Below are positions 19,258 through 61,828 of a DNA stretch of 64,000 nt, piece after piece. The translations under genes were made by a program, and so were the position numbers. Source of the DNA: Haloterrigena sp. KLK7 (GTDB lineage Archaea > Halobacteriota > Halobacteria > Halobacteriales > Natrialbaceae); NCBI RefSeq assembly GCF_037914945.1, contig NZ_CP149788.1, positions 62,001 to 126,000 of the forward strand, read 5' to 3'. How positions within the stretch are numbered: the first letter of the stretch is position 1; every line of letters begins with the position of its first letter. The notes under the pieces are model-generated. The model did no database searches. It had not been told where the DNA came from and saw nothing but the letters and a program-made list of their open reading frames with translations.

Positions 19258-19265
19258 CTCGCAGG

Positions 19266-22215: not shown

Positions 22216-22450
22216 CGTACGGCCTCAAGTATCTAGACCGTATTCCTACTGTCTGACACGAATTGATTTATCTGAGTGTCTCGTGAACTGATATCGGAAC
22301 GCGACGCAGAGCCGTCGAACGACGTGCACTGCCCGGATCGCAATCGATCGCTGACACCGCTACCGTCGCACGCGATCCGGCGAGACGGTGGGCAGGCTAT
22401 CCGTCGCAACGTCGGACTCGAGAAGGGGGTTCGGTATCGGCGACGTCCGA

Positions 22451-22601
22451 TCAGCCGTGGCTGCTGATAACGATCTGATCGACGTCGTTCTCCTCGGCGA
22501 ACTCGACGATGTGCCGGATCGGTTCGCCGACGACGGTTGCGGTCGTAATCGTCGGCGATCACCCGTGCGGTCTCGAACAGCGTCTCGGCCCCAGCGTCCA
22601 T
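22451..22601 (-). pseudogene. Universal stress protein (UspA) remnant, frameshifted
   Basis: On the minus strand, MDAGAETLFETARVIADDYD continues in another frame as ATVVGEPIRHIVEFAEENDV, then DQIVISSHG and a stop. That is the middle of a UspA domain. The N-terminal strand and the C-terminal nucleotide-binding Gly motif are missing, and one frameshift splits the remainder. It lies head to head with the intact UspA at 22667. Confidence 0.7.
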
Positions 22602-22666
22602 CGTCTCGCAGACGGCCCGTTCGAACCCGCGACCTATACGGACGGCGATCCGACGTACGGTCGCAC

Positions 22667-23116
22667 ATGTACTCCGACATCTTGCTCGCGACCGACGGAA
22701 GCGAGTGTGCGCGCGAAGCCACGGTTCACGCGATCGACCTCGCGAAGACGTACGACGCGACGCTTCACGTACTCTACGTGATCGAAACCCGGATCGGATA
22801 CGATACCGGCGTCGTCGATCCGACGACGATCGAGGAGGATCTCCGCGCCGAAGGCGAAGCCGTGCTCGAGGACGTCGCTGCCGAGAGTCGGGCGACGGAC
22901 GTCCCGTTCGTCAGTCGCCTCCGGACGGGCGTCCCCGAACCAGAGATCGCGGACTACGTCGACGCGGAGGGTATCGATCTCGTCGTTCTCGGTGAACGCG
23001 GCAAGTCGACGTTCAAAACGATTCTGCTAGGCAGCACGAGCGAGGCACTCGTCCGTGACCTCTCGATCCCCGTCGTTCTGGTGTCGGCCGACGAGACCGA
23101 GACGAAAGATGCGTAG
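22667..23116 (+). CDS. Universal stress protein, UspA family
   Basis: 149 residues from ATG 22667. The start MYSDILLATDGSECAREATVHAIDLAKTY is the usual first strand and helix. The ATP-binding motif G-x2-G-x9-G-[ST] is seen in GERGKSTFKTILLGSTSEALV, followed by DLSIPVVLVSADE. It is a cytoplasmic nucleotide-binding stress or regulatory protein. The longer open frame to 22388 overlaps the decayed UspA on the other strand and is not used. Confidence 0.88.
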   Translation: MYSDILLATDGSECAREATVHAIDLAKTYDATLHVLYVIETRIGYDTGVVDPTTIEEDLRAEGEAVLEDVAAESRATDVPFVSRLRTGVPEPEIADYVDAEGIDLVVLGERGKSTFKTILLGSTSEALVRDLSIPVVLVSADETETKDA

Positions 23117-23609
23117 TCGGACGCGGATGGATCATCGTCCACCGCCGCAGACAATACTGTCGCAATAGCCCTATTGTAGAGAGTACGCTCCTCGAGGAGC
23201 TGAATCATCTTCAGCACGAACGAGTTAACCGACGGATACAGCCGTGTACGGTCGAGGTAATTCGACATTGGGACGCCGTACGGTGTAGCTACTAGCGGCG
23301 AGTGTCAGTAGAAGTCCCGTTGCGCTCTGGCGTCCCGGTAATCGCTAGTTGTGGTCGCGGTCGTCCCCAGTCGCAAACCGCTTTCAGACTCCGTCCGATA
23401 CCGATCTCTGTCTTCGAAGACTAGTCCTTTTGCGATCGGACGGACCGCCGACGGATTCGGACACGTGGTTGGATCGTGGTCGGTGTTACGAGAAACTCCC
23501 GACGATAGCTGCAGTGAAGTGCACTCGACCGAGCAGTTCTCGGAGTGCGTCTCGCATGGAACGACACGGATCGAATGGGTTTCCCGCTCGCGCTCTCGGA
23601 GCGACCGGT
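23117..23609. other. Intergenic region between UspA and hemE
   Basis: About 490 bases with no gene I can support. A leftward frame ending at 22954 (begins MSNYLDRTRLYPSVNSF at 23268) overlaps the UspA gene; its first 35 residues look protein-like but I recognise no family. It could be a transposase or other remnant. Confidence 0.35.
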
Positions 23610-24623
23610 CTAGTCCCACTCCCAGTTTTTCGCGGTCTCGACGAACGCGGTGACCGACTCGATGGGCGTCTCCTTGTTCACTCCGTGGCCGAGGTTGCAG
23701 ATGTACCCCTGCGGCCCGGCGGACTCGATCAGCTTCGCGGTCCGATTTCGGACCGTCTCGGAGTCGGCGAACAGGATCGTCGGATCGAGATTGCCCTGAA
23801 CGGGAATCGTCCCGAGTTCCTCTCGCGCACGCCCCATGTCGACGGTCCAGTCCAGCGAGACGGCGTCGGAACCGGCCGTTCGGAGCTGATCGAGTCGACC
23901 GCCCATCCCGCGGACGAACAGGATCGTCGGCGCGTCGACCGCGGAGAGAATCCGCTGGTGGAGCGGGAGCACGTACTCCTCGTAGTCCTGCGGCGGGAGG
24001 ACGCTCGCGTAGGTGTCGAACAACTGGACGACGTCCGCCCCGTGGTCGACCTGCAGTCGAAGATACTCCGTCACGACGTCCGCGAACCGCTCGAGGAGGC
24101 GCTCGAACGCGGCCGGCTGTTCGGCGCGGAACCGACGGATCGCCCCGTTCCGGTGGTCGACGCCGCCGGCGACGGCGTACGACGCGAGCGTAAACGGACC
24201 GCCGGCGAATCCGATAACGGCGTCCGTATCGGCGACCGACTCGGACAACCGGTCGAGCAGGTCGGACACGAACTCCAGTTCCGTCTCGACGTCGCGGTGG
24301 GTGGACGGCACGTCGTCGGGGCCGTCGACCGGGTTCTCGACGACCGGACCGACGCCGGACTCGACGCGGTAGTGGAACCCGAGCGGCTCGAGACACGTGA
24401 GAATATCGGAGAACATCACGACGCCGTCGACGTCGTACCGCTCGTACGGCTGCAGCGTGATCGTCTCGGCGATCTCCGGCGTTTCGATCGCCTCGCGGAA
24501 CGAGTGCGTGTTTCGGATCTCCCGGTACTCCGGGAGATGCCGTCCGGCCTGGCGCATCATCCAAACCGGCGGCCGTTCGGTGCGTTCGCCCCGCGCCGCT
24601 CGAACGAGGAGTGGTGTGGTCAT
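23610..24623 (-). CDS. hemE: Uroporphyrinogen decarboxylase
   Basis: 337 residues. The family start RPPVWMMRQAGRHLPEYREI holds the substrate-binding Arg residues. GVVMFSDILTCLEPLG carries the catalytic Asp, and FAGGPFTLASYAVAGG, QLFDTYASVLPPQDYEEYVLP, SLDWTVDMG and YICNLGHGVNKETPIE are all conserved. It converts uroporphyrinogen III to coproporphyrinogen III in the cytoplasm, the step before the HemG/HemH pair at 18.2-20.5 kb. The gene reads toward them and is single. Its presence argues for a classical or coproporphyrin-dependent heme branch in this organism. Confidence 0.93.
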   Translation of the reverse strand: MTTPLLVRAARGERTERPPVWMMRQAGRHLPEYREIRNTHSFREAIETPEIAETITLQPYERYDVDGVVMFSDILTCLEPLGFHYRVESGVGPVVENPVDGPDDVPSTHRDVETELEFVSDLLDRLSESVADTDAVIGFAGGPFTLASYAVAGGVDHRNGAIRRFRAEQPAAFERLLERFADVVTEYLRLQVDHGADVVQLFDTYASVLPPQDYEEYVLPLHQRILSAVDAPTILFVRGMGGRLDQLRTAGSDAVSLDWTVDMGRAREELGTIPVQGNLDPTILFADSETVRNRTAKLIESAGPQGYICNLGHGVNKETPIESVTAFVETAKNWEWD

Positions 24624-28661: not shown

Positions 28662-29675
28662 ATGGCAGAACAAGGACGGAGACCGCTATTGAAAGCTATC
28701 GGTGGCACTGCAACGCTCGGTATCAGCGCTCTCGCCGGCTGTATCGGCGATGGGGCGTCCGGGGACACCTTCCAGATCGCTGCGACGTTCAACCAAGATC
28801 ACCCGCAAGTACAACTCCTCGAGCGATGGGGAGAGAACGTCTCGAACGAGACCGACGGAAGCCTGAGCATCGAGTACGTGAGCCTCGGCGGAGAGGAAGA
28901 TCACATAAGCGCCACGTCCTCCGGGAGTATCGCTGGCCACGGCGTCGCGATGACGGCGCTCACCCAGTCGTACGGTACCGAGTACGGGTTCCTGGAAGCG
29001 CCGTTCGTCGCCGAGGACTGGGAGCACTTTCAGGCGCTCATGGACGAGTACGTCTACGGCGACGGCGGGTTCAACGATCAACTGATAAACGACGCCAACC
29101 AGCGAATCCTGGGGTCGGCGTTCCGCGGGCTTCGAGGAACGACCGCGAACAAAGAAGTGAGCGAGCCGTCCGATATCGAGGGCATCAAGATGCGACTCCC
29201 CGAGTTCGAGACGTGGGTCAACAGCTGGGAAGAGATCGGCGCCCAGGCGACGCCCGTTCCGTACGACGAACTGTACCAGGCCCTTCAGACGGGCGTCGTG
29301 TCGTCCTCCGAGGGACCGATCGCACAGTTCGTGGATTCCAGCCTGTACGAGGTGCAAACGCACTTCTCGCAGACCGATCATCTCCTCCAGACGCAGAATT
29401 GGGTGATCAACGAGGATCGGTGGCAGAGTCTGGACGAAAGCGAGCAGGAAGCGATGCAGACGGCGCTCGACGAAGCGATCGAGTGGGGCAACGAGGAGAC
29501 TCGGTCCCAAGCGGAGGAGCTCTACCAGATGGTACAAGACGAGCACGACGTAACGGTCGTCTCCAGTGATGATGTCGACCAAGACGCGTTCCGGAGCGCC
29601 GCGGAGCCGCAGTTAGAAGCGTTCTTCAGCGACCGCTGGGAGCCGAGCCTGGAAGACGTGCAGTCGTTAGCCTAA
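28662..29675 (+). CDS. TRAP transporter substrate-binding lipoprotein (DctP family)
   Basis: 337 residues. The signal MAEQGRRPLLKAIGGTATLGISALAGC has an RR pair and lipobox Cys. The DctP fold shows TFNQDHPQVQLLERWGENVSNETDGSLSIEY, then LRGTTANKEVSEPSDIEGIKMRLPEFETWVNSWEEIGAQATPVPYDELYQALQTGVV, where the Arg of KMRLPE is the residue that binds the substrate carboxylate. It captures an organic acid outside the cell for the DctQM membrane pair that follows. Given the acid-sugar genes downstream, the ligand is probably a sugar acid (inference). Confidence 0.92.
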   Translation: MAEQGRRPLLKAIGGTATLGISALAGCIGDGASGDTFQIAATFNQDHPQVQLLERWGENVSNETDGSLSIEYVSLGGEEDHISATSSGSIAGHGVAMTALTQSYGTEYGFLEAPFVAEDWEHFQALMDEYVYGDGGFNDQLINDANQRILGSAFRGLRGTTANKEVSEPSDIEGIKMRLPEFETWVNSWEEIGAQATPVPYDELYQALQTGVVSSSEGPIAQFVDSSLYEVQTHFSQTDHLLQTQNWVINEDRWQSLDESEQEAMQTALDEAIEWGNEETRSQAEELYQMVQDEHDVTVVSSDDVDQDAFRSAAEPQLEAFFSDRWEPSLEDVQSLA

Positions 29676-29702
29676 CGTGGATGAACGTGAATAGAGAACA
29701 CC

Positions 29703-30254
29703 ATGACTAGCATACGAGATATAGTCACCCTGAATTCCGCGATGTCTGCCGGTCCCCTGATGGACAGGATAGAACAGCTGCTGGGCGGCCTCGGGAAGCT
29801 CACCCTGGCGACGATGGGAGTGATCGTCGGGCTACAGATACTCTTCCGATTCGTTCCGGTGAGTTTCCCGAGCGTTTGGACGACTGAAGTCGCTCGATAC
29901 CTGCTCGTATTCATGACGCTAACCGGCGTTCCGTACGCGATGCGACGTGAAAATCACATCTCGGTACGACCGCTGCTGCGGATGGTCTCCGATTCGATTC
30001 GGAACCTCATGATCACGCTCTCGAACGTCCTGGTCGTCGTGATGTGCTCGATCGTGGTGCTATCCGGGTTCACCATCCTGGAGCGAACGATGTTGCAGTC
30101 GCTCCCGACGGTCGGCTGGCTGAAGGTCGGATACTTGATGATCTACCTCATCGCCGTGTTCGGCCTCTGCATCGTGTTCATCTTCGAGCAGACGGCGCGG
30201 ATCTGGACCGGCGAAGCCACGGAGCCGGACGTCCGGGTGGTCAACGATGACTGA
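29703..30254 (+). CDS. TRAP transporter small permease (DctQ family)
   Basis: 183 residues with four predicted TM segments (about 30-55, 70-90, 110-135, 145-170). The family pattern FRFVPVSFPSVWTTEVARYLLVFMTLTGVPYAMRRENHISV contains the conserved W-[TS]-x-E-[VI]-[AS]-R-Y and the charged R-x-x-x-H segment. It lies 27 bases after DctP and overlaps the DctM start by 8 bases. Confidence 0.92.
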   Translation: MTSIRDIVTLNSAMSAGPLMDRIEQLLGGLGKLTLATMGVIVGLQILFRFVPVSFPSVWTTEVARYLLVFMTLTGVPYAMRRENHISVRPLLRMVSDSIRNLMITLSNVLVVVMCSIVVLSGFTILERTMLQSLPTVGWLKVGYLMIYLIAVFGLCIVFIFEQTARIWTGEATEPDVRVVNDD

Positions 30255-31551
30255 TCCGCTAGTGCTGGCCATGCTGTTCGTCGTGCCGTTGCTAGTCATG
30301 TACGTGTTCGGCGTTCACGTCGCGTTCGCACTCGGATTAGTCTCCGCGCTGGTAATGTTGCTCGGCGTCGGTCCGACGTGGACCGTCGAGACGTTCGCGA
30401 ATCAGATGTACAGCTCGCTAAACAGCTTCACGCTGCTCGCGATTCCGTTCTTCCTGTTCGCGGGGCGGATGATGAACTCGATCGGCCTGACGGACGACAT
30501 CTTCGACTTCGCCGAAGCGCTCGTTCGTCCGCTCCCCGGCGGGCTCGGCCACGTGAACGTCGTGGTGAGTATCATCTTCTCCGGGATGAGCGGCGCGGCA
30601 GTGGCGGACGCCGCCGGGCTCGGGTCCATCGAGTACGAAGCGATGACCAGCCGCGGGTACGACGGTCCGACCGCGGCCGGAATCACCGGCGCGTCCTCGA
30701 CCATCGGCCCGATCATCCCGCCGAGTATTCCGATCATCGTCTACGGTGTGACCGCGCAGGTCTCGATCGGGGCCCTCTTCCTCGCCGGGATCCTCCCCGG
30801 CCTAGTGATGGGCCTCGGCCTCATGGCGTTCATCACCGTCGGCGCGCTGAGGAGCGGCACGGCGACCGTAGAGGCGTTCAGCCTCCGCGAACTCTTCGAG
30901 ACGAGCATTCGGGCGCTGCCCGGCCTCATCGCGCCGGCGATCATCATCGGCGGCATCGCGACCGGTCTGTTCACCCCGACCGAGGCGGCCGCCGTCGCCG
31001 GAATCTACGCGGTTGTGCTGGGCGGGCTCTACTACCGAAACTTAGATCCGAGCAAGCTCTGGTCCATCCTCGGCGACACGTTCGAGGACACCGCCGTGCT
31101 GACGCTCATCATCGCGTTCGCAAACATCTACGGGTTCGTCCTCACCATCTCGGGCCTGCCGACGGTTCTCACCGAGCAGCTCCTGACTATCTCGTCGGAG
31201 CCGACGATCCTGCTCCTCCTGTTCGCCCTGTTCTTCCTGATCCTCGGCACGTTCATGGAGACCATCGCGATCATCATGATCGTCGTTCCGATCGTCGCCC
31301 CGATACTTCCACAGATCGGCATCGATCCGATCCACTTCGGTATCGTGATGATGGTCGCCCTGATGATCGGACTCATCTCGCCGCCGTTCGGCGTCGTGCT
31401 CTTCGCACTGGAACGCGTCACCGATCTGGATATCGAGGATATCATCAAGGGGATCATCCCGTACTACATTCCGTTGCTCGGGGCCCTGGTACTGCTGATC
31501 CTCTTCCCCTCGATCGTCCTCACCGTCCCTCGCTACTTAGGTCTCGCGTAA
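30247..31551 (+). CDS. TRAP transporter large permease (DctM family)
   Basis: 434 residues with 11-12 TM segments. Family motifs are LLAIPFFLFAGRMMNS, IFSGMSGAAVADAAGLGSIEYEAM, GITGASSTIGPIIPPSIPIIVYG and AVAGIYAVVLGG. It uses the sodium or proton gradient to import the acid presented by DctP. Its start at 30247 lies within the end of dctQ, so the two are translationally coupled. It is the last gene of the transporter operon and is followed by a convergent aldolase gene. Confidence 0.93.
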   Translation: MTDPLVLAMLFVVPLLVMYVFGVHVAFALGLVSALVMLLGVGPTWTVETFANQMYSSLNSFTLLAIPFFLFAGRMMNSIGLTDDIFDFAEALVRPLPGGLGHVNVVVSIIFSGMSGAAVADAAGLGSIEYEAMTSRGYDGPTAAGITGASSTIGPIIPPSIPIIVYGVTAQVSIGALFLAGILPGLVMGLGLMAFITVGALRSGTATVEAFSLRELFETSIRALPGLIAPAIIIGGIATGLFTPTEAAAVAGIYAVVLGGLYYRNLDPSKLWSILGDTFEDTAVLTLIIAFANIYGFVLTISGLPTVLTEQLLTISSEPTILLLLFALFFLILGTFMETIAIIMIVVPIVAPILPQIGIDPIHFGIVMMVALMIGLISPPFGVVLFALERVTDLDIEDIIKGIIPYYIPLLGALVLLILFPSIVLTVPRYLGLA

Positions 31552-31690: not shown

Positions 31691-32452
31691 TCAGTTATCG
31701 ACGAGGTCCTCGAACTCCGCTCGCGCCGCGTCGCTACCCGACGAGAGGTAGGCGATATCGGCGCCGGCTATCAGGAAGTCGATGCCCGCATCGGTCCAGC
31801 GGTGGATGCTCTCGCGGTCGGTGGCCAACATCCCGACGGCCTTGTCGTGGTTCCGTGCCGTCGTTACTATTGAGTCCAACGCGGACTCGAACCGCTCGTC
31901 CTCCCACTGACCGAAGACGCCGAGCGACGCCGAGAGGTCTCCGTGACCGACGATGACCGCGTCGACGCCGTCGACGGAGACGATGTCCGCCGCGTTTTCC
32001 ACGCCACGTTCCGTTTCGATCTGGAGGATCGTGACCAACTCGTCGTCGGCCGTTTCGAAATACTCCTCGAAGGTGCGGCCGTAATCGGACGCTCGAGCGG
32101 GCGCGACACCGCGGGTTCCCTCCGGCGGGTATCGCATCGCGTCGACGGCTCGCTCCGCCTGCTCGGCGGTTTCGATCATCGGAATCATGAGCCCCGCGAC
32201 GCCGAGGTCGAGGACGCGCTTGATCCAGGCCGAGTCGTTCAACGGGACGCGGACGATAGGCGCCGCGTCGCGGTGAACTGCCCGGAGCAGATTGCCGACC
32301 GTCTCCAGTCCCATGTCGGTGTGTTCCGTATCGATAACGACGAAATCGAATCCCTCGGAACAGATTTCAGCGACGGCCGGATGACCGATCGAGATCCAGT
32401 TCCCCGTCGCGGGTTCGCCCGGCTGAAACAACTGCCGTGTATCGTCCGTCAT
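31691..32452 (-). CDS. HpcH/HpaI-family aldolase (2-keto-3-deoxy-acid type)
   Basis: 253 residues from ATG 32452; a TTTTTAATC TATA-like element lies upstream on the minus strand. It has the class II pyruvate aldolase barrel: WISIGHPAVAEICSEGFDFVVIDTEHTDM (catalytic His and Asp region), PIVRVPLNDSAWIKRVLDLGVAGLMIPMIETAEQAERAV, TILQIETERGVENAADI (metal-binding Glu) and DAVIVGHGDLSASLG (metal-binding Asp). Such enzymes cleave 2-keto-3-deoxy sugar acids into pyruvate and an aldehyde. It reads against the transporter and is part of the acid-sugar island. Exact substrate unknown. Confidence 0.88.
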   Translation of the reverse strand: MTDDTRQLFQPGEPATGNWISIGHPAVAEICSEGFDFVVIDTEHTDMGLETVGNLLRAVHRDAAPIVRVPLNDSAWIKRVLDLGVAGLMIPMIETAEQAERAVDAMRYPPEGTRGVAPARASDYGRTFEEYFETADDELVTILQIETERGVENAADIVSVDGVDAVIVGHGDLSASLGVFGQWEDERFESALDSIVTTARNHDKAVGMLATDRESIHRWTDAGIDFLIAGADIAYLSSGSDAARAEFEDLVDN

Positions 32453-32697
32453 AGGTACACGAAACGACACCCGCGATTAAAAACTTGCTGCCCGGAGGGC
32501 TCTCCGCGGGATCCTCTCGGCTCCAGGGTGCCAGATATCGGGTCGACCGCGACTCGCCGGTCCGTGCTCGGTCGCCAGTATCGCTCTCCTCGAATATCGT
32601 ACCCGTCCGCAGCGGAGTTGCGTGCTCCGAACCGTTTCTCCGCCAGTAGCGGCGGCGGCACACTTATATAGGTGGGTGAACAACTACCACAGGAATC

Positions 32698-33486
32698 ATG
32701 CCCGATTGGTTAGCGGATGATGTAGCGGTAGTTACTGGCGGCTCGAGCGGTAACGGACGAGCGATCAGCCTGACGCTGGCAGAGCACGGTGCGAACGTCG
32801 TCGTCGCCGACCTGCAGTCGGACCCCCGCGGCGGCGGTACCCCGACGCACGAGAAAATTCAGCAAGAGTACGGCCAGGAAGCGGCCTACGTCGAATGCAA
32901 CGTCGCCAACGTTTCGGACCTTCGAGAAGCGATCGCCGCCGCCGACGAGCTCGGTGGCGTCTCGATCATGGTCAACAACGCCGGCATCACGCACAGCAAC
33001 GAGTTCCTCGAGACGACCGAGGAGGACTTCGACCGGATCATGGATATCAACGTCAAAGGCGTGTTCTTCGGCGCTCAGGCGGCTGCCGAGAGCATGATCG
33101 AAGCGGGACGGAGCGGCTCGATCATCAACATGTCCAGCGTCACGTCGTTTATCGGCCGCGGCGACGGCGTGCGGTACTCCACGTCGAAAGGCGCGGTCGA
33201 ATCGATGACGTACGCGCTGGCGGACCGACTCGGTCCCGAGGGCATTCGCGTGAACTCGATCCACCCGAGCATGATCGAGACGCCCATGACGGAGGACGAC
33301 CTCGAGCTGATCGACAACGAATCGTCCGAGAAACACGAGCAAGCGACGCCGCTCGGTCGGATCGGCCAGCCACAGGACGTGGCGGACACCGCGCTGTACC
33401 TCGCCAGCCCGCTCGCGAGCTTCATCAACGGCGAGAAGATGGTCGTCGACGGCGGCGTCACGACCACGATGGGCGGCGGCTACTAA
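32698..33486 (+). CDS. Short-chain dehydrogenase/reductase
   Basis: 262 residues. The cofactor site is VAVVTGGSSGNGRAISLTLAEHG (TGxxxGxG), then VNNAGITHS, and catalytic Ser in INMSSVTSF with YSTSK (Tyr and Lys). The end is ASFINGEKMVVDGGVTTTMGGGY. It is an NAD(P)-dependent alcohol or polyol oxidoreductase. CTTATATAGG at about 32661-32670 gives a TATA box 28-37 bases before the ATG, so the mRNA is nearly leaderless. In the island it could oxidise the sugar to its lactone or acid, or handle a downstream keto acid; which one is not evident. Confidence 0.9.
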   Translation: MPDWLADDVAVVTGGSSGNGRAISLTLAEHGANVVVADLQSDPRGGGTPTHEKIQQEYGQEAAYVECNVANVSDLREAIAAADELGGVSIMVNNAGITHSNEFLETTEEDFDRIMDINVKGVFFGAQAAAESMIEAGRSGSIINMSSVTSFIGRGDGVRYSTSKGAVESMTYALADRLGPEGIRVNSIHPSMIETPMTEDDLELIDNESSEKHEQATPLGRIGQPQDVADTALYLASPLASFINGEKMVVDGGVTTTMGGGY

Positions 33487-33863: not shown

Positions 33864-34289
33864 CTACGCTCGCTCATCGACGGGACGCGGATCTTCGACG
33901 ATTTGCATGGGGAGCGGCGTGTCGTGATAATCGAGCGTGGTGATCTTCCAGTCGATCCCGTCTCGGATCTCGTCGACGAAACCGTATCCCAGCACCTCGA
34001 GTTCCGCCCGGCGCCGTTCGATATCGTCGACCTCGAACGCGATGTGGAAGAAGCCGGGACCGTGCTCCTGGAGGTGCTCGTAGTGCCACCCGCGCTCGGC
34101 GGTCGGAGACGTGAACTCGATGATGGTCTCGCCGATCGAGTAGAGCGCGACCTCGCAGTGGTCGTCCTCGAAGTGGACCTTTTGAATCCGATCCATGCCG
34201 AAGTCGTCCTCGAACACAGCCGTGTACTCGTCTATCTCCTTCTCGACGCCGCCGATAAGTATCGCTATGTGATGGATTCGCTCGAACAC
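33864..34289 (-). CDS. VOC superfamily protein (glyoxalase / methylmalonyl-CoA epimerase-like)
   Basis: 141 residues. The paired beta-alpha-beta-beta-beta modules are FERIHHIAILIGGVEKEIDEYTAVFEDDFGM and GPGFFHIAFEVDDIERRRAELEVLGYGFVDE. Metal-ligand candidates are His in IHHIAI, Glu in IIEFTSP, His in FFHIAF and Glu in MQIVEDP, as in epimerases and dioxygenases of the superfamily. It is cytoplasmic; the substrate is perhaps a keto acid of the island. It diverges from the duplicated-domain gene at 34434. Confidence 0.85.
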   Translation of the reverse strand: MFERIHHIAILIGGVEKEIDEYTAVFEDDFGMDRIQKVHFEDDHCEVALYSIGETIIEFTSPTAERGWHYEHLQEHGPGFFHIAFEVDDIERRRAELEVLGYGFVDEIRDGIDWKITTLDYHDTPLPMQIVEDPRPVDERA

Positions 34290-34433: not shown

Positions 34434-35240
34434 ATGCCAAGAGACATCCGACTAGTCGATAGCATCACCCAGCCGAAGGAATCGCGAGGGTCGGTCATCG
34501 TCGCCGGCAGCCACGGCGGCATCTCGTCGGGACGATACGCGGCACAGCTCGGGCTCACCGGGATCGTCTTCAACAACGCCGGTGTGGGGAAAGACGACGC
34601 CGGGATCGAATCGCTCTCCTACCTCGAGGAGCTCGGTCTGCCGGCCGCGACGATCGACAACCAGAGCGCGCGAATCGGCGACGGCGTGGATATGGCTCGA
34701 GGCGGCGAGATCAGCCACGTCAACGCCGTCGCCGAAGACTGCGGTTGCGAAGTCGGCCAGTCCGCCCTCGAGTGCGCGGCGACGATGCACGACGCGGGCG
34801 TCGAACCCGTACAGGAAGACGTCGGAAGCGAGATGACCCAGGCGAGGGTCGACGACGGCGAGGTGCCGGTCTGGACCCTGGATTCGATCGGATTGATCTC
34901 CGACGAACACGAGGGGGCGATCACGGTCACCGGAAGCCACGGCGAGCGCCTCGCCGGCGAGTTCGACTCCTACATCCAAGCCGACGTCGCGGGAATCACG
35001 CTCTTCGACGCGGGCGTCGGCAAAGATGACGCCGGCATCGGCCGACTTCGAACGATGAACGAACGGGGGATTCCCGCCGCGACCGTCGACGTCGAGTCGG
35101 CGCGAATCGGCGATTCGAAATCGGCCCTCGACGGCGGCGTTCTCAGCCACGTCAACGACGTCGCCTCGGACCTCGGAATCGAACCCGGCGACAGCTGTTC
35201 GAGCTTCGTCGAAACCGTTCGCGCGTCCGAGCGGCAGTGA
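34434..35240 (+). CDS. Internally duplicated protein of unknown function in the acid-sugar island
   Basis: 268 residues made of two similar halves, about residues 8-110 and 149-253. Both share GSHG near their start, [FN]xAGVGKDDAGI, G[LI]PAAT[IV], SARIGD and [IL]SHVN. The linker (111-148) has Cys, His and Glu residues. No transmembrane or signal sequence. I do not recognise a named family; the repeated nucleotide-like GSHG and AGxGKDxAG motifs suggest phosphate or sugar binding, but that is inference. TTTTTATAATT (about 34402-34412) is its TATA region. The RuBisCO-like gene follows after 73 bases, so it probably leads the operon with that gene and the DUF1537 kinase. Confidence 0.8.
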   Translation: MPRDIRLVDSITQPKESRGSVIVAGSHGGISSGRYAAQLGLTGIVFNNAGVGKDDAGIESLSYLEELGLPAATIDNQSARIGDGVDMARGGEISHVNAVAEDCGCEVGQSALECAATMHDAGVEPVQEDVGSEMTQARVDDGEVPVWTLDSIGLISDEHEGAITVTGSHGERLAGEFDSYIQADVAGITLFDAGVGKDDAGIGRLRTMNERGIPAATVDVESARIGDSKSALDGGVLSHVNDVASDLGIEPGDSCSSFVETVRASERQ

Positions 35241-35313: not shown

Positions 35314-36579
35314 ATGTCACGGATACGCGCAACATACCGAATCGAAACGCCCTACGAACCCGAGCACGCGGCCGAGGCGATCGCGAACGAGCAGTCCTCC
35401 GGGACGTTCGTCGAGGTCTCGACCGAAACGGACGGCCTCACCGAACGACACGGTGCGACGGTCGAATCGATCACCGAACTCGACGTCGTGGACGAACCGA
35501 CCCTTCCGGGCTCCGCTTCGCCCGCCGGCGCCGCGGAGTCGCCGACGTACACGCGAGCGGAGGTCGTCCTCTCGTACCCCGTCGAGAACATCGGGACGTC
35601 GCTGCAGAATCTCATGACGTTAGTCGCGGGGAACCTCTTCGTGTTGAAGGAGCTGTCCGGCGTTCGGCTGGTTGACCTCTCCCTGCCCGAGGAGTTCGCA
35701 GCCGCGCAGCCGGGACCGCAGTTCGGCATCGATGGGACCCGCGAACTCGTCGGCGTTCGGGACCGGCCGATCATCGGAAGCATCATCAAGCCCAGCGTCG
35801 GCCTCTCTCCGGAGGAGACCGGCGACATCGTCGAGACGCTCGTCGAGGCTGGCGTCGACTTCATCAAGGACGACGAACTCATCGCCAGTCCGCCCTACTC
35901 TCGAGTCGAAGACCGCATCGCGGAAGTAATGGACGCGATCCACCGCCACGAAGCGGAGACCGGGAAAACGGTGATGTACGCCTGTAACGTCACCGGCGAC
36001 ATCGACGAAATGCTGGAGCGACACGACGCGGTGAAGGAGGCCGGCGGCAACTGCCTCATGGTGAGCCTCCGAAGCGTCGGTCTCGCCGGCGTCCAGAAAC
36101 TCCGCGAGGAGTCTGAGCTTCCGATCCACGGGCATCGAAACGGATGGGGTGCGCTCTCCCGGTGTCCCCAACTGGGTTTCAGCTACGAGGCGTGGCAGAA
36201 ATTCTGGCGACTCGCCGGCGTCGATCACCTGCACGTGAGCGGCATCCGAAACAAGTTCACGGAATCGGACGAATCGGTCGTCTCTTCCGCCACGGAGTGC
36301 CAGACGCCGATCGCGTCCGACGACGACACGGTGATGCCCGTGTTTTCCTCGGCCCAGTGGGCCGGACAGGCGCACGACACCTACGAGTCCGTCGGAAACA
36401 CCGATCTCATGTACCTGGCGGGCGGGGGCATCCACGGCCACCCCGACGGGCCTCGAGCGGGCGTCGCTCACCTCAAGCAAGGATGGGAGGCCGCGATGCA
36501 GGGTATTCCGCTCGAAGAATACGCAGAGACGCACGAAGAACTACGAACGGCAATCGACTACTACGGAGACAATGACTGA
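35314..36579 (+). CDS. RuBisCO-like protein (large-subunit family, form IV), candidate acid-sugar-phosphate enzyme
   Basis: 421 residues. The alpha/beta barrel keeps many RuBisCO positions: K159 in GSIIKPSVGLSP (catalytic Lys), the carbamate-site cluster K185-D-D-E188 in VDFIKDDE, HGHRNGWGALSR, HLHVSGIRNKF (loop-6 region with Lys), VFSSAQWAG and AGGGIHGHPDG. The spacing and the changes in these motifs (HGHRNG, FSSAQW) place it with the RuBisCO-like proteins, not true carboxylases. RuBisCO-like enzymes paired with DUF1537 kinases act on 3-oxo-isoapionate 4-phosphate in bacterial D-apiose/D-apionate catabolism, as decarboxylase (OiaX) or transcarboxylase/hydrolase (OiaT). Its stop overlaps the kinase start by 8 bases. 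Confidence 0.9.
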   Translation: MSRIRATYRIETPYEPEHAAEAIANEQSSGTFVEVSTETDGLTERHGATVESITELDVVDEPTLPGSASPAGAAESPTYTRAEVVLSYPVENIGTSLQNLMTLVAGNLFVLKELSGVRLVDLSLPEEFAAAQPGPQFGIDGTRELVGVRDRPIIGSIIKPSVGLSPEETGDIVETLVEAGVDFIKDDELIASPPYSRVEDRIAEVMDAIHRHEAETGKTVMYACNVTGDIDEMLERHDAVKEAGGNCLMVSLRSVGLAGVQKLREESELPIHGHRNGWGALSRCPQLGFSYEAWQKFWRLAGVDHLHVSGIRNKFTESDESVVSSATECQTPIASDDDTVMPVFSSAQWAGQAHDTYESVGNTDLMYLAGGGIHGHPDGPRAGVAHLKQGWEAAMQGIPLEEYAETHEELRTAIDYYGDND

Positions 36580-37963
36580 CGACGAACTACTGCTGACGTT
36601 CTACGGAGACGACTTCACGGGATCGACCGACGCGCTAGAGGGATTGGCCGACAACGGCGTTCGAGCCGTCCTCTTCATGACACCCCCGACCGCGGAGGAC
36701 CTGGAGCGCTTCGATGACCTCGACGCTGTCGGCGTCGCCGGTGTAAGCCGGACGATGACGCCGGAAGAGATGGAATCGGAACTGCAGCCGGTTTTCGAAG
36801 CGCTCGCCGAATTGGACGCTCCGATCGTCCACTACAAGGTCTGCTCGACGTTCGATTCCTCGCCGGAGGTCGGGAGCATCGGGACCGCGATCGACATCGC
36901 CCAAGACGTGTATGACTCGCCGTTCGTTCCCGTGTCTCAGGGAACGGAGGTCCCGCACGGACGCTACGTCGCGTTTTCGAACCTCTTTGCGGAACAGGGA
37001 GGGGAGGTGTACCGGATCGATCGCCACCCGACCATGCGCGACCATCCGGTCACCCCGATGCACGAGAGCGACCTCCGGCGCCACCTCGGAGAGCAGACGA
37101 GTCGCCCGATCGGCCGCGTCGACCAACGGTTCCTCGACGACTACGAGGCCGCCGAGGCGGAACTCACGGAGACGATTCGCGAGGACGAAATCGTCGTCCT
37201 CGACGCGCTGAACACGGACCACCTCGATACGATCGGACGCCTCCTGTGGACCCGCGCGACCGACGCGTCGGGCCCGCTGTTCGCGGTCGGCTCCTCTGGC
37301 CTCGAGCATCACGCCCTCGTCAGTCACTGGGACGAGACCGGCGAGATCGATCGGGACGCGACGTACTTCGAGAAGCGGGAACCGGCGGACAACATCGCCG
37401 TCATGTCCGGTAGCGCCTCCGAAGAGACGGCGGCGCAGATCGACTGGGCGAACGAACACGGGTTCCGCCTCGTTTCGATCGACACCGAGCGTCTGGTCGA
37501 CCCGGACGAGAAGAGCGACGCGCGGGCCGCCGCAGTCGAGGAGGCCCTCGCTGTACTGGACGACGGCGAGAGCGTCGTTCTCTACTCCGCCCGCGGTCCG
37601 GACGATCCCGCTATCGACGCCACGCGGGCGGCGTTCGAGGAACACGGTACGGAGGAGAGCCTCGAATCGTATCTGGGGCGCCAGCAGGGGATTATGTTCC
37701 GCGAGATCCTCGAGCGATCGGGCGTGACGCGCGCCTGCGTCGCCGGCGGGGACACGAGCAGCCACGTGATCTCAGAACTGGACCTCGACGCACTCGAGGC
37801 GATCGCACCGGTCGCACCCGGTGGACCGCTGTGCCGAGCCCACTCGACGACGGAATTCGATGGTCTAGAACTCGCGCTTAAGGGAGGGCAAGTCGCCACG
37901 AGGAACGACGAATTCGATTACTTCGGGGTCGTTCAGCAGGGCGGAATAGACCGGACCGACTGA
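36572..37963 (+). CDS. Four-carbon acid sugar kinase family protein (DUF1537; OtnK/OiaK-like)
   Basis: 463 residues. The N-terminal domain starts LLLTFYGDDFTGSTDALEGL (the conserved DDFTG motif) and contains HYKVCSTFDSSPEVGSIG. The C-terminal nucleotide-binding domain has VAGGDTSSHVI and APGGPLCRA, ending LALKGGQVATRNDEFDYFG. The family phosphorylates C4-C5 sugar acids with ATP. Translational overlap with the RuBisCO-like gene mirrors the OiaK-OiaX/OiaT pairing of D-apionate catabolism, where the kinase makes 3-oxo-isoapionate 4-phosphate. Erythronate or threonate are alternative substrates of the family, but those pathways do not use a RuBisCO-like partner. Confidence 0.9.
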   Translation: MTDDELLLTFYGDDFTGSTDALEGLADNGVRAVLFMTPPTAEDLERFDDLDAVGVAGVSRTMTPEEMESELQPVFEALAELDAPIVHYKVCSTFDSSPEVGSIGTAIDIAQDVYDSPFVPVSQGTEVPHGRYVAFSNLFAEQGGEVYRIDRHPTMRDHPVTPMHESDLRRHLGEQTSRPIGRVDQRFLDDYEAAEAELTETIREDEIVVLDALNTDHLDTIGRLLWTRATDASGPLFAVGSSGLEHHALVSHWDETGEIDRDATYFEKREPADNIAVMSGSASEETAAQIDWANEHGFRLVSIDTERLVDPDEKSDARAAAVEEALAVLDDGESVVLYSARGPDDPAIDATRAAFEEHGTEESLESYLGRQQGIMFREILERSGVTRACVAGGDTSSHVISELDLDALEAIAPVAPGGPLCRAHSTTEFDGLELALKGGQVATRNDEFDYFGVVQQGGIDRTD

Positions 37964-38093
37964 GAACTCCAGTTGTATCGACTGTGATGACGTCCCTCTC
38001 GCCGGCGAACGAATAGACGCGATTCGAGTTCTCTCGCCCTCCGAACGCGGTATGCTGTACTAGATTTAAATGACTGCAACGTGTGGATTACCT

Positions 38094-38936
38094 ATGTCCA
38101 CCGTCCCATCGAGAAGGCTGGCTAGTGGCGATCAGATTCCCGTAATCGGCGCTGGCACGTGGGATCTAGCCGGAGAGACAGTCAAGGAGTCGGTCCGCTG
38201 TGCTCTGGACACCGGGTACACCCACGTGGATACCGCCGAAGGGTACGAGAACGAAACCGAAATCGGCGAGGTACTCGCGGAGTACGACCGCGACGAGGTA
38301 TTTCTCACATCGAAGGTCCTCCCGAAGCACCTCAATTACGGGTCAGTCCTCGAGTCGTGTCGAGACTCGATTCGAAGACTCGGCGTCGAATACCTCGATC
38401 TCTATCTCATCCACTGGCCGAATCCGGCGATCTCAGTTCGGGAGACGTGGAACGCGATGGAACGACTCGTCGAGGAGGGATACGTGGAAAATATCGGTGT
38501 CTCCAACTTCTCGGCGTACCAGCTGTCGGCGGTCCAGCACATCGCCGACGTCCCCGTCGCGGTCAACCAGATCGAGTACAACCCCCTTTACGCCCGATCG
38601 GAACTGCTCGAGTACTGTCGCGACACCGATGTCGTCGTCGAGGCCGCTGCCCCGTTCGGCAGAGGAAAAGCCTTCGACCATCGAACCGTTCGAGACGTCG
38701 CCGAGAAACACGACAGGTCTCCCGCGCAGGTCGCGCTCCGGTGGGCGATCGAGAAAGACGTCGTCGTCCTCCCGAAGTCCAGTTCGCCGGACCACATCCG
38801 GTCGAATTTCGACCTGTTCGACTGGGAACTCGACGCAACGGACCACGAGAAACTCGACGGGATCGAAGAGTCTGACCCCGCTTACGACTCCGGTGCCCGG
38901 GACTGGACGAGAGATACCTACGGGATTCCGAAATAA
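38094..38936 (+). CDS. Aldo/keto reductase
   Basis: 280 residues. The catalytic tetrad is visible: Asp and Tyr in HVDTAEGYENETEIG, Lys in FLTSKVLP and His in LYLIHWPNP. Also present are IGVSNFSAYQL, AVNQIEYNPL and the NAD(P)H-binding VVVLPKSSSPDHIRSN. ATG 38094 is chosen because TTTAAA at 38065-38070 sits 24-29 bases upstream, which suits a leaderless mRNA; an in-frame ATG at 38070 overlaps the TATA box. It probably reduces a sugar-derived aldehyde or ketone such as glycolaldehyde, erythrulose or the starting aldose (inference). Confidence 0.9.
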   Translation: MSTVPSRRLASGDQIPVIGAGTWDLAGETVKESVRCALDTGYTHVDTAEGYENETEIGEVLAEYDRDEVFLTSKVLPKHLNYGSVLESCRDSIRRLGVEYLDLYLIHWPNPAISVRETWNAMERLVEEGYVENIGVSNFSAYQLSAVQHIADVPVAVNQIEYNPLYARSELLEYCRDTDVVVEAAAPFGRGKAFDHRTVRDVAEKHDRSPAQVALRWAIEKDVVVLPKSSSPDHIRSNFDLFDWELDATDHEKLDGIEESDPAYDSGARDWTRDTYGIPK

Positions 38937-39046: not shown

Positions 39047-40798
39047 ATGAGGAATGTGAAGATCGTTTGCACACTCGGACCTGCGTCGAACGACGGGGAG
39101 ACGATCCGAGAACTCGTCACAGCCGGCATGTCCGTTGCGCGGCTGAACGCGAGCCATGGGTCCCGTGAGGATCACGCGGAACTAATCGACCGCATTCGCA
39201 CGGTCGACGAGGAGCGAGCGGGATCCGTTGCGGTCATGCTCGACATGCAAGGGCCGGAGATTCGGACTGCACCGCTGGCCGAGGGTGAGACGGTGACGCT
39301 GGAGGCCGGCTCCGAGGTCCGGTTCGTCGAGGGAACGGAGGCGACTCCGGAGACCATCGGCCTCTCACTGTCGATCGACACCGTCGAACCGGGCGATCGC
39401 ATCCTGCTGGATGACGGACTCATCGAGACGACCGTCCTGGAAAACGACGGTAACGCGGTTCGCGCACGGGTCGACACCGGGGGCGATTTGGGCGGCCGGA
39501 AGGGCGTGAATATCCCCGGCGTTGATCTCGATCTCGACATCGTCACCGAATCCGATCGCGAGGTCCTCGAGCTGGCCGCCGAGAAGGACGTCGACTTCGT
39601 CGCGGCGAGTTTCGTCCGCGACGCCGAAGACGTCTACGAGGTCAGCGAAGTGCTCGAGGAGCAGGGCGTCGATATTCCGATCATCGCGAAGATCGAACGC
39701 ACCGGTGCGGTGGAGAACTTGGACGAGATCATTGACGCTGCCTACGGCGCGATGGTCGCTCGCGGGGATCTGGGTGTGGAGTGTCCGATGGAGGACGTCC
39801 CGATGGTCCAGAAACGAATCATTCGGAAGTGCCGCGAGGAGGGGTCACCGGTGATCACGGCCACGGAGATGCTCGACTCGATGGTTCACGCCCGGCGGCC
39901 GACCCGCGCCGAGGCCTCGGACGTCGCGAACGCCGTCCTCGACGGCACCGACGCGGTGATGCTGTCAGCTGAGACCGCCATCGGCGACCACCCCGTCGCC
40001 GTCGTCGATGCCATGGACAGAATCATCCGCCAGGTCGAAAAGTCCGACGAGTATGCCGAGTTACTCGAGCAGCGCATCCCAGCGGCAGGTGAAGCGCAGA
40101 CGGACGCGCTGGCTCGCTCGGCGCGGTTCCTGGCGCGGGACATCGGTGCAGACGCGGTCGTCGCCGCGACAGAATCCGGCTATACAGCGCTAAAGACGGC
40201 GAAGTATCGGCCGGACGTGCCAGTCGTCGCCTCGACGCCGAGTCAGGAAGTACGCCGCCGACTCGCACTGACATGGGGGGTAACGCCACTGTATGCGCCC
40301 GTGTCGGGCCAGGGTGCCGATGCTGTCGTCGAGAAGGCAGTCCAAGCGGCACTGAACGCCGGCGCTGCTGAAAGCGGAGACACCGTCATCGTTCTCTGTG
40401 GGATGATGACTGATCTCGAGGGAACGAACACGACGAACATGCTCAAAGTCCACGTCGCGGCCGAGGCGCTGACGACCGGGCGGGTCATCGTCGAGGGTCG
40501 AGTCACTAACTCCGTCACTCGCCTCTCGGACGGTGACCTTTCGAATGTCGCAGACGGGTCAATCCTCGCGCTGCCCGCCGACTTTGATGGAGAGTTCACC
40601 GGTGACACGAGCCTCATTGATGGGATTATCAGCGCCGAACAAGCGATGACCAGCTATCCGGCAATGGTTGCACGAGAGTTAGAAATTCCGATGATTACTG
40701 GTGCGGACGTACAGGACATCGGTGATGGAAATACCGTTACGCTTGACGCCGAACGCGGCATCGTATACAGTGGAGACATCCTAGAAGATACTCGATAA
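39047..40798 (+). CDS. pyk: Pyruvate kinase with C-terminal PEP-utilising-type domain
   Basis: 583 residues. The start [38 protein letters not shown] is the family signature; the active-site region is [36 protein letters not shown] and [43 protein letters not shown]. Beyond residue 470 is the extra domain ([35 protein letters not shown]) related to the swivelling PEP-utiliser domain, normal in haloarchaeal Pyk. It converts PEP and ADP to pyruvate and ATP. TTTTTTATAC about 25-35 bases upstream of the ATG indicates a leaderless mRNA. The last quarter uses more A/T-ending codons than the neighbours. Its place beside enolase in a sugar-acid island is unusual. Confidence 0.95.
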
Positions 40799-40842
40799 AT
40801 AGACATATACAGTTGGAGAGCACTGGTAACAGTGAGAACAGT

Positions 40843-42096
40843 ATGGTGATTGCCGACATTCAACTCCGGCGTATCCTCGATTCCCGAGGGAATCCAACAG
40901 TTGAGGCAGACGTTGTGACCGAAAACGGTGGCTTCGGCCGCGCCGCGGCACCGAGCGGTGCCAGCACGGGCGAGTACGAGGCCGTCGAGCGACCGCCGAG
41001 CGAGGCGATCGCCGCGGCCCGCGAACGCGTCGTTCCCCGACTCGTGGGCGAGGCCGACGCGGGGAACCAGCGCGAGGTCGACGCCATTCTCCACGCCGCC
41101 GACGGGACCGACGACTTCTCGGAGATCGGTGCCAACAGCGCGGTCGCCATCTCGATGGCCGCCGCGAAGGCCGGTGCCGACGTGCTCGGCGCGCCGCTGT
41201 TCCAGCATCTCGGCGGCGCGTTCCGCGGCGAGAACTTCCCGATCCCGCTCGGGAACGTCATCGGCGGCGGCGAACACGCCGCCGACGCGACCGACATTCA
41301 GGAGTTCCTCGTCGCGCCCGTCGGCGCACCCAGCGTCGAGGACGCCGTCTTCGCCAACGCCACCGTCCACGGCACCGTCGCCGACCTGCTCGAGGAACGC
41401 GACGTCCCCTGCGGCAAGGGCGACGAGGGCGCGTGGGCACCGTCGATCGACGACAGCGAGGCCTTCGAGATCGTCGACGAAGCGGTCTCGACCGTCCAGG
41501 ACGAGGTCGGATTCGAAGTGAAGTTCGGTCTCGACGTCGCCGGCGCGGAGCTGTACGACGGCGACTCCGGCACCTACGAGTACAGCGATCGGAGCCGCGA
41601 CACCGACGAGCAGATCGAGTACATCGCGGACCTCGTTCGCGAGTACGATCTGGTCTACGTCGAGGACCCCCTCGACGAGGACGACTACGACGCCTTCGCC
41701 GACCTCACCGACGAGGTCGGCAGCGCGGCGCGGAACGCCGCGGGCAGTGCGAGCGGGCAGCGCCCGCGAGCAGACGAGACGCTGATCTGCGGTGACGACC
41801 TGTTCGTCACCAACACCGGCCGGCTCCGTGAGGGGATCGATCGGGGCGCGGCCAACAGCATCCTGATCAAGCCCAACCAGATCGGAACGCTAACCGACGC
41901 CTTCGACGCGATCGAACTCGCGACGGAGCACGGCTACGACTCGGTCATCTCCCACCGCTCGGGCGAGACCGAGGACGCGACCATCGCACACCTCGCCGTC
42001 GCGACCGACGCCCCCTACATCAAGACGGGTGCCGTCGGCGGCGAGCGAACCGCCAAGCTCAACGAGCTCATCAGAATCGCAGACGACGCAGTATAA
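40843..42096 (+). CDS. eno: Enolase
   Basis: 417 residues from ATG 40843. Conserved regions are [39 protein letters not shown], the metal ligands in [31 protein letters not shown] and [12 protein letters not shown], catalytic Lys in [20 protein letters not shown], and [22 protein letters not shown] short Ala/Gly/Ser-rich insert ([17 protein letters not shown]) interrupts the segment before GDDLF; haloarchaeal enolases vary here. It interconverts 2-phosphoglycerate and PEP. It lies 44 bases after pyk, so the two probably form a unit that takes 2-phosphoglycerate to pyruvate; the only missing link from 3-phosphoglycerate would be a mutase. Confidence 0.95.
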
Positions 42097-42244: not shown

Positions 42245-43084
42245 CTACGCCACTTCGGACGCGACTTCCTCGAGTTTTTCCTCGGAAAACACCCGGTCTT
42301 TCCAGTCGGACCTGAAGATATCCTCTTCGGTCTCGTCGATGATCGCCTGTGCGCCGTCGGAGAACGGGAAATCGGTGAATCCGAACACGATCCCCAGCTC
42401 GACCCGAAAGTGTCCGAAGAGGAAATCTCTCGCTGCCTGTTCGGGAACGCCCTGTTCAACCACGTGATCGTACGCTTCTCGGACGGCGTACAGACACGAA
42501 CCGAGCACCATTTCGACGAGCGCTGGCTCCAGCAAGAACATCTGCTCCGTCGTCAGCTCGTGGGCGCGGCGGACCGGCGCGTAGATGTCGCGTGCGAGGG
42601 CCTCACCGCGCTCGTAGTCCTCGTCGGGGCCCTGATGGAGGGCGCAGACGATGTCCTGTTCTTCTCGACCCTGGCCGCCGAACCAGTCCGGATCTTCGCG
42701 GCTCAAATCCGAACTCGCATCGATGATCGACGGGTGCGCGGGGTGGGTGATGAAGTAGGAGATATCGTCCCGCTCGGAGAGCGCGTCGGCGTACGCCGCC
42801 GCGGGGTCGAGGAGGACGACCATCGTTCCGCTGTCGATCTTCGGGACGATGTCTTCGGAAATCGGCCCGATGAGGTCGTCCGGAACCGCCATGACGACGA
42901 TCTCGGCGCCGTCGAGCGCCTGCGATTCGTCGACCGCGGAGACGCCTCGCTCAGCGAGTCTCTCTCGGCCCTCTTCGCTCGGTTCTACGTACCGCACGTC
43001 GTATCTGGCGTTATCCTTGAGGCGGTCGGTGATCCTGCAGCCCATCTTTCCGCCGGCTCCCAGAAGAGCGACTCGAGTGGTCAT
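42245..43084 (-). CDS. NAD(P)-dependent dehydrogenase with PGDH-type C-terminus, resembling D-apionate oxidoisomerase (ApnO)
   Basis: 279 residues from ATG 43084. The N-terminal Rossmann motif is RVALLGAGGKMGCRITDRL; then VVMAVPDDLIGPISEDIVPKI, SGTMVVLLDPAAAYADALSERDDISYFITHPAHP, and a helical C-terminal part (TTEQMFLLEPALVEMVLGSCLYAVREAYD, then ARDFLFGHFRVELGIVFG). The combination GAGGKMG, THPxHP and MxxLEPxL matches my memory of ApnO, which oxidises and isomerises D-apionate to 3-oxo-isoapionate; relatives include other 6-phosphogluconate-dehydrogenase-like oxidoreductases. It would feed the DUF1537 kinase. It is transcribed opposite to enolase and divergent from the IclR gene. Confidence 0.82.
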   Translation of the reverse strand: MTTRVALLGAGGKMGCRITDRLKDNARYDVRYVEPSEEGRERLAERGVSAVDESQALDGAEIVVMAVPDDLIGPISEDIVPKIDSGTMVVLLDPAAAYADALSERDDISYFITHPAHPSIIDASSDLSREDPDWFGGQGREEQDIVCALHQGPDEDYERGEALARDIYAPVRRAHELTTEQMFLLEPALVEMVLGSCLYAVREAYDHVVEQGVPEQAARDFLFGHFRVELGIVFGFTDFPFSDGAQAIIDETEEDIFRSDWKDRVFSEEKLEEVASEVA

Positions 43085-43532
43085 GCTTACTGATCCATAT
43101 CCACCAACTCCGCCCGGCGGGTTAAACATTGCTGCTACGGCGCGAGTACGGCGAATTAGCGAGAGACGATGCCGTCGTCCGGAGGATATCGTCGACGGTG
43201 TCCCTCGCAGAAGTCGACGGAGGCTCCGCGAGACGGCTTTTCGCGAGTAACGAGAAATATGCCGCGCGGTGTTCCAACGTGGAATATTGGGGCGATACGG
43301 ACCAACAGACGTGTAGCAGTCCGCTTTCCTCCTCGCTAACCGCACTTCGGTCCGGGGATCGGGTATCGGATACACCCCGCTTCGACGGCGATCGTGAACC
43401 GGACAATTTCGGGCGACTCGGGCCGGTAGTGCCGACGTGTTCGTCCTGAGATGAAAACTACTCGAGCGGATGATAGGTATAACTGCGGAGAATTACCCGA
43501 AGTATTTTGCCGGTAGAAGCTAGAGATCGACT
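43085..43532. other. Divergent promoter region between the ApnO-like gene and the IclR gene
   Basis: About 450 bases. Open frames are shadows without motifs. It must hold promoters in both directions (GTTTAACC near 43120 on the minus strand; AGTATTTTGCC near 43500 on the plus strand) and presumably IclR operators, but I cannot point to a convincing palindrome. Confidence 0.4.
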
Positions 43533-44306
43533 ATGGACGAAGATCTTAGCGAGAGGCGAACAGTACAGGCGACGGAGACAGCGTTCGACATCGTGGAATA
43601 CCTCCAGGCGGAGAACGGAGCGAAACTCCACGAGATCGCGGACGCGTTGGACCTGGCGAACAGCACGGTGTACCACCACCTGAACACCCTCCTCAAGCGG
43701 AGGTACGTCACTAGAGACGGCGACATGTACTATCCCGGTCTGGAGTTCCTCAACGTCGGAGGATGGGTTCGCGACCGACGAAGAGTAAATCGCCTGTCCG
43801 AGTCGTTCGTCAAAGCGCTCGCGGAGGAAACCGGCGAACAAGTGCAGTTCATCGCCGAGGAGAACGGGTTCGGCTATCACGTGTACACGGCGACCGGCGA
43901 ACACGCGACGTCGATCGACAGCCGGTCGGGGAAACGAATCTACCTCCACGCGAACGCGGCGGGGAAGGCGATTATCGCCTACGATTCCGAGGAGCGTATC
44001 GACGAAATTATCGACACGGTGGGACTGCCCGCACTCACCGAACACACGATCACGGATCGGGAAGAGCTGATAACCGAACTCGAGCAGGTCCGCGAACAAG
44101 GGTATGCCTACAACTGGGAGGAGCACGTCGAAGGATACTGCGGAATCGCGGTTCCCATACGGCCGGAGGACGAGGTACTGGGAGCGCTCGCGCTCGGCGG
44201 GCCGATCGAACGCATCAAGAACGAACAATCGAAGGAAGCGTTGACGCAGCGACTGCGGGAAACAGGCAACGAGTTCGAACTAGAACTCAAGTTCCCCGAC
44301 TTGTAG
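43533..44306 (+). CDS. IclR family transcriptional regulator, probable regulator of the acid-sugar island
   Basis: 257 residues. The N-terminal winged helix (about residues 10-70) is TVQATETAFDIVEYLQAENGAKLHEIADALDLANSTVYHHLNTLLKRRYVTRDGDMYYPG. The C-terminal IclR effector domain has QVQFIAEENGFGYHVY, RSGKRIYLHANAAGKAIIAY and EEHVEGYCGIAVPIRPEDEVLGALALGGP. IclR/KdgR proteins commonly sense sugar acids or aromatic acids and control catabolic genes next to them. It closes the island at its right end, divergent from the ApnO-like gene. Confidence 0.92.
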   Translation: MDEDLSERRTVQATETAFDIVEYLQAENGAKLHEIADALDLANSTVYHHLNTLLKRRYVTRDGDMYYPGLEFLNVGGWVRDRRRVNRLSESFVKALAEETGEQVQFIAEENGFGYHVYTATGEHATSIDSRSGKRIYLHANAAGKAIIAYDSEERIDEIIDTVGLPALTEHTITDREELITELEQVREQGYAYNWEEHVEGYCGIAVPIRPEDEVLGALALGGPIERIKNEQSKEALTQRLRETGNEFELELKFPDL

Positions 44307-61658: not shown

Positions 61659-61828
61659 GTCCTGAAGGGAGGCGAAGCCACTAGGGATCGGCACAGGTCG
61701 ACTCAAGACCGGTATCTCGGTCTGCGTCTTGTTGCCAGTTATATGATGGTCCCGTTCAGTGTGTGTCCAACCCACACATATGATAACATTTATTTATGAT
61801 GGTCTGGATCGCTTACTCAGGATCCGAG

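Follow-up and report, generated by a model that had tools for sequence, protein, structure and literature searches.

A duplicated DUF1805-like protein encoded beside RuBisCO-like and kinase genes in Haloterrigena sp. KLK7 is probably an enzyme of sugar-like acid degradation

The operon and its haloarchaeal counterparts

The stretch of Haloterrigena sp. KLK7 DNA analyzed here (64,000 nucleotides in full; hereafter the window) carries an open reading frame for a 268-residue protein built of two similar units (Table 1). This tandem gene leads an operon with the genes for a RuBisCO-like protein and a kinase, a reading offered in the preliminary description and borne out by the gene order in the window: the RuBisCO-like gene starts 73 bp downstream of the tandem gene and is itself overlapped by 8 bp by the kinase gene. 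The TATA-like element TTTTATAA lies upstream at a spacing that, as expected, fits a leaderless haloarchaeal transcript.

Table 1. Features at and around the tandem gene, in window positions; motif rows are in residues of the tandem protein.
Feature	Position	Strand	Remarks
TRAP transporter DctP-DctQ-DctM	28662..31551	+	DctP by family scan; DctQ and DctM by position and by eye
HpcH/HpaI-type aldolase	31691..32470	-	upstream
SDR dehydrogenase	32698..33486	+	upstream; conserved neighbor in both haloarchaeal contexts
VOC/glyoxalase-fold protein	33864..34289	-	divergent; conserved neighbor in two haloarchaeal contexts
TATA-box-like element TTTTATAA	34402..34409	+	~25 bp upstream of the tandem-gene ATG, by eye
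Tandem DUF1805-like protein, 268 aa	34434..35240	+	main subject
First repeat unit, about residues 5-120	34446..34793	+	
First-unit motifs	GSHG 25-28; DAG-type 48-50; SARIGD 78-83; SHVN 94-97		DAG-type motif is here NAG
Second repeat unit, about residues 145-267	34866..35234	+	
Second-unit motifs	GSHG 167-170; DAG 192-194; SARIGD 222-227; SHVN 238-241		
RuBisCO-like protein	35314..36579	+	best NCBIfam model OiaX
DUF1537-type acid-sugar kinase	36572..37963	+	best NCBIfam model OiaK
Aldo-keto reductase	38070..38936	+	downstream
Pyruvate kinase and enolase	39047..42096	+	second genomic copies; names by eye
PGDH_C (PF16896) dehydrogenase	42245..43375	-	downstream
IclR-family regulator	43533..44306	+	downstream

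The cluster resembles the D-apionate/3-oxo-isoapionate pathway (OiaK, OiaX, ApnO) in that OiaX and OiaK are the best models for the RuBisCO-like protein and the kinase, and in that it includes a PGDH_C dehydrogenase, which we take to be similar to the D-apionate oxidoisomerase ApnO. However, the RuBisCO-like protein (515.6 bits against OiaX) and the kinase (441.4 bits against OiaK) both fall below the equivalog cut-off of 700, and the substrate is only putative. The K-D-D-E metal motif is retained in the RuBisCO-like protein, as judged by eye. To our knowledge, the tandem protein has not been described as a member of this pathway.

The window, which lies on contig C2, also holds an additional gene each for pyruvate kinase (80% identical to its counterpart on contig C1) and enolase (93%). 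These extra copies are consistent with a pathway product at the level of phosphoglycerate. They were not found beside the operon in L165 and L166, relatives with the same context, and thus may be a local addition. Elsewhere in the window, genes for a PEP-hydrolase-like protein (PF09370), a cupin and a UPF0261 protein stand side by side, with ABC transporter genes after them, some of these named by eye (53833-56320 and 59585-62839); this is probably a second small-molecule catabolic cluster. Genes for a CobW-type GTPase, ferrochelatase and uroporphyrinogen decarboxylase form a heme-synthesis neighborhood at 16174-24623.

In three further haloarchaea (L162-L164, the last with its tandem gene seen by tblastn as L007), the tandem gene is accompanied by VOC, SDR and TRAP genes, and genes for pyruvate-dehydrogenase-type E1alpha and E1beta subunits take the place of the RuBisCO-like protein and the kinase. 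E2 genes are present in L162 and L163, with E3 close by. When the SDR of this context was compared with the window genome, the window SDR was the best of 26 matches (266 bits; next 161), and the corresponding comparison of the VOC protein returned the window VOC (137 bits; next 32), so that the two partners in L162-L164 correspond to those in the window. In unannotated loci, genes were called by simple ORF scripts and several were named by eye.

The internal repeat and its kinship with DUF1805

That the protein consists of two tandem copies of one domain, as originally proposed, is confirmed by comparison of its halves. Self-comparison by BLASTP revealed a significant repeat, with 48 of 97 residues identical (49%; E 5e-23), and the Smith-Waterman score between the halves was 220, where 1000 shuffles scored 34 on average (sd 6) and at most 63. 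All of the motifs named in the preliminary description do occur twice, but not at the constant offset of 141 residues given there: the offset is 142 at GSHG (S26/S168) and shifts to 144 from AGVGKDD on (A49/A193, I81/I225 and N97/N241), because of a two-residue insertion. Nor is the domain as short as the ~100 residues first estimated; the repeat unit spans ~120-125 residues, from an 'xxDSxT' strand (residue ~5 or ~145) to a last helix (ending at ~120 or ~267).

Residue conservation was read from an alignment of 81 family sequences (A2). S26, S168, N97, N241, D150 and H169 were each present in all 81 sequences, D192 in 80 and H27 in 74, while position 48 of the first unit, Asn in the window protein, was Asp in 77 of the 81. 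A matching set of Ser, His, Asp and Asn, carried by the motifs Ser-His-Gly, Asp-Ala-Gly, Ile-Gly-Asp and Ser-x-x-Asn, is conserved family-wide in both halves, and A49/A193 and I81/I225 were also among the residues kept across both units.

The AlphaFold model of the full protein had a pLDDT of 93.7 and a pTM of 0.91, and the first unit modeled alone (126 aa; pLDDT 93.5) is predicted to fold independently. Foldseek searches of the PDB with the full and single-unit models returned no entry at E 0.001 and no close whole-domain match. The full model matched 1qw2 best (probability 0.95, E 0.14, 58 columns), an entry that ranked 30 for the single-unit model and was also recovered with an archaeal DUF1805 profile. 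This entry is TA1206 of Thermoplasma acidophilum, a member of DUF1805 (PF08827), which also occurs in Bacillus subtilis and methanogens. PF08827 was matched by 69 of the 81 family members at E<=1 (best 1.4e-7); the window protein itself scored 13.5 bits, below the gathering cut-off of 29.5. Alignment with 12 archaeal DUF1805 proteins by hhalign gave probabilities of 96.7-96.8% (E 4e-10 and 2e-10). Judging from these profile comparisons, each unit shares homology with DUF1805 over its C-terminal ~65 residues.

The invariant Asn of an S-x-x-N motif is common to both families. Whereas the window family is a fused tandem, however, a DUF1805 protein has one unit only, of ~100 residues, and lacks the GSHGG-helix; inspection of the alignments by eye shows, as the main difference, a strand-turn-helix insertion that bears GSHGG. 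DUF1805 proteins form tetrameric assemblies, according to the Pfam description. The preliminary description had called the protein unrecognized. This stands to the extent that the tandem protein is not covered by any model in Pfam, NCBIfam or the PDB, that a PHROGs search gave no match, and that the protein, the family and the unit profile, each searched against PDB sequences, found no significant match; even so, a relationship of each unit to DUF1805 can be detected. The profile searches led to no family of characterized function, and a literature search brought up no work on DUF1805, TA1206 or the pathway in haloarchaea, nor biochemical results for any member of the family.

Several other resemblances were considered and set aside. 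Matches to IMS (Y-family DNA polymerase, PF00817) in 57 of 81 members (best E 1.7e-6) were local only, as were those to pol eta/IV in structure and sequence searches, and we draw no function from them; a remote fold resemblance is possible. A DUF1805 alignment (A4) also matches IMS locally (best E 0.0036). Foldseek matches to LarE, MppP and transaminases had low TM-scores and, for most, large rmsd.

Family distribution and bacterial gene contexts

Relatives of the tandem protein are carried by at least 337 stretches of the genome collection, and the family spans haloarchaea, Proteobacteria, Actinobacteria, Poribacteria and Latescibacteria. Within the haloarchaeal order, they were found in 8 of 293 genomes, with the query counted and one being a weak partial match. 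Relatives also occur on plasmids of Rhizobium, Ponticoccus, Aminobacter, Methylovirgula and Rhodococcus, and where these are annotated, all are named hypothetical protein. A tree built from the two units of 30 proteins separates all N-terminal from all C-terminal units by one branch (present in 100% of bootstrap trees; support 96/99), placing a single duplication before the spread of the family. By this unit phylogeny, the tandem family is the product of one old duplication.

A profile search for single-domain relatives, which had been suggested at the outset, turned up one: a 134-residue protein from a Proteobacteria genome (L161:9953-10354). It has a full unit with GSHGG, NDAG, SARIGE and SHAN motifs, but only one such unit rather than a tandem. 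Its gene is flanked by P450-like and CoA-transferase-like genes (named by eye). The unit fell between the N- and C-terminal groups in the tree on a long branch, given which it may be either an ancestral form or a fragment.

A single group of acetolactate-synthase-like ThDP enzymes dominates the bacterial contexts. Its genes lay near the tandem gene, within the stretch taken, in 56 of 80 loci, a phylogenetically uneven set that includes about 15 from Achromobacter, and were often directly downstream. Identity among the members compared was 56-86% between phyla. The group (loci L015-L094) is rare and scores far under the NCBIfam cut-offs. In one sample of 299 Proteobacteria genomes, with a cut-off of our choosing (E 1e-150), it was present in a single genome, which also carries the tandem gene; in the same sample, the tandem gene was found in three genomes and the single-unit form in one. 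In six loci, the place of the ThDP gene is taken by KdgD-like, FMN-dehydrogenase-like and/or HbpS-like genes, and KdgD-like and galactarate-dehydratase-like sugar-acid enzymes are among the other bacterial neighbors. The Rhizobium, Aminobacter and Rhodococcus relatives lie in CoA-thioester or aromatic catabolic clusters without orthologues of the ThDP enzyme or RuBisCO-like protein. We dismissed a need for the bacterial ThDP enzyme in the window genome, where the best match is 34% identical.

Candidate functions of the tandem protein

The theme common to these loci is the catabolism of imported hydroxylated carboxylic acids. Since the tandem gene lies beside enzymes that cut C-C bonds in many microbes, its product is probably a missing enzyme of pathways that degrade sugar-like acids. 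The earlier proposal of a pathway enzyme thus draws its support from genome context, and we consider it quite likely that the tandem protein acts as an enzyme on metabolites of the pathway.

We propose that the tandem protein would be a soluble enzyme, from a duplicated branch of the DUF1805 superfamily, that helps to degrade hydroxylated (sugar-like) carboxylic acids taken up by the cell. Together with the SDR, and with the VOC protein in haloarchaea, it would make up a front end that oxidizes and rearranges the imported acid, yielding a keto acid of the 2-hydroxy-3-oxo (acetohydroxyacid) type or a related one. A C-C bond of this product would then be split by exchangeable modules: the OiaK-like kinase and OiaX-like RuBisCO-like protein in the window, the E1/E2/E3 complex in other haloarchaea, and the acetolactate-synthase-like ThDP enzyme in bacteria. 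The step of the tandem protein itself would most likely be an acid-base-catalyzed isomerization or epimerization of the keto acid in which the GSHGG loop, at the start of the helix, holds the carboxylate, and could take place either in two equivalent sites, one per unit, or in one site at the pseudo-twofold interface. The two ligand sites or pseudo-twofold active site put forward in the preliminary description would agree with the retention of identical polar residues in both units throughout the history of the family. Assignment of the protein as an isomerase or epimerase, predicted like the other functions considered here from sequence, structural models and gene neighborhood, is tentative.

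The 3-oxo-isoapionate of the D-apionate pathway is itself a 2-hydroxy-3-oxo acid of the acetohydroxyacid type, and such acids could also be cleaved by ThDP enzymes of the acetolactate-synthase-like and acetoin-dehydrogenase-like kinds. RuBisCO-like proteins of D-apiose pathways decarboxylate or transcarboxylate/hydrolyse 3-oxo-isoapionate-4-phosphate (PMC6302742). This overlap in substrate type suggests that the back ends are interchangeable on a shared type of intermediate and that the tandem protein may belong to the front end that makes it. However, ApnO-like dehydrogenases are described as performing oxidation and isomerization alone, and since one such enzyme lies in the window operon, an extra isomerase may be unnecessary here. 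The fullest version of this idea, in which the tandem protein carries out an undescribed rearrangement to a common 2-hydroxy-3-oxo acid that feeds three unrelated, interchangeable back ends, is improbable as a whole.

Alternatively, and as the main rival to isomerization or epimerization, the tandem protein may be a serine hydrolase such as a lactonase. In this scheme the SDR would oxidize a sugar-like substrate to a lactone, which the tandem protein would open at its A/T-G-S-H-G-G turn with S26/S168 as nucleophile, ahead of the ApnO-like enzyme, the kinase and the RuBisCO-like protein. The order strand-AGSHGG-helix-strand-NDAG resembles the nucleophile elbow of alpha/beta-hydrolases (Sm-x-Nu-x-Sm; AGSHG in unit 1 and TGSHG in unit 2), both serines are invariant, the unit profile weakly matches two hydrolases of this fold at GxSxGG (E 3.6e-5 and 7.7e-4), and 6 of 81 members weakly match Abhydrolase_6. 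However, the resemblance is short, covering GxSxGG and the next strand, and Foldseek gave no fold match over the domain, with no whole-domain alpha/beta-hydrolase among the matches listed for the full and single-unit models. Furthermore, no Ser-His-Asp triad could be assigned from sequence, and the domain is kin to DUF1805, which is without the serine motif. Although the window SDR passes the NCBIfam cut-off for 'glucose 1-dehydrogenase' (271 versus 215 bits), as might suit lactone formation, that subfamily is very broad. We regard a lactonase as rather unlikely.

A non-catalytic role, in ligand binding, assembly or regulation as a partner of whichever enzyme cleaves the C-C bond (ThDP, E1 or RuBisCO-like), would fit the frequency with which the tandem gene adjoins a ThDP enzyme gene, its association with three unrelated cleaving enzymes, and the small size of DUF1805 proteins, which are without assigned function. 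The cleaving enzymes differ in fold, however, so that a subunit common to all of them is unlikely; both units strictly conserve the polar motif set, and the tandem gene is also found without any such partner, so we give this role little credence. The recurrent sugar-acid context leaves the reaction type unfixed, and the side chains available (Asp, His, Ser and Asn) could equally suit a dehydration, a lyase reaction or a rearrangement of the carboxyl group. Such a step is similarly doubtful, as known dehydratases and aldolases are already present in many loci (HpcH here, and KdgD-like and galactarate-dehydratase-like enzymes elsewhere).

If the rearrangement to a shared intermediate is correct, it would be the first function assigned in the DUF1805 superfamily. 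The family offers a clean example of two equivalent units maintained side by side since one old duplication, and it occurs across archaea and several bacterial phyla, tied to pathways of RuBisCO-like and ThDP enzymes. The reaction of the tandem protein would name a step in the breakdown of plant-type sugar acids, give DUF1805 a functional anchor, and point to the substrate of a rare ThDP group.
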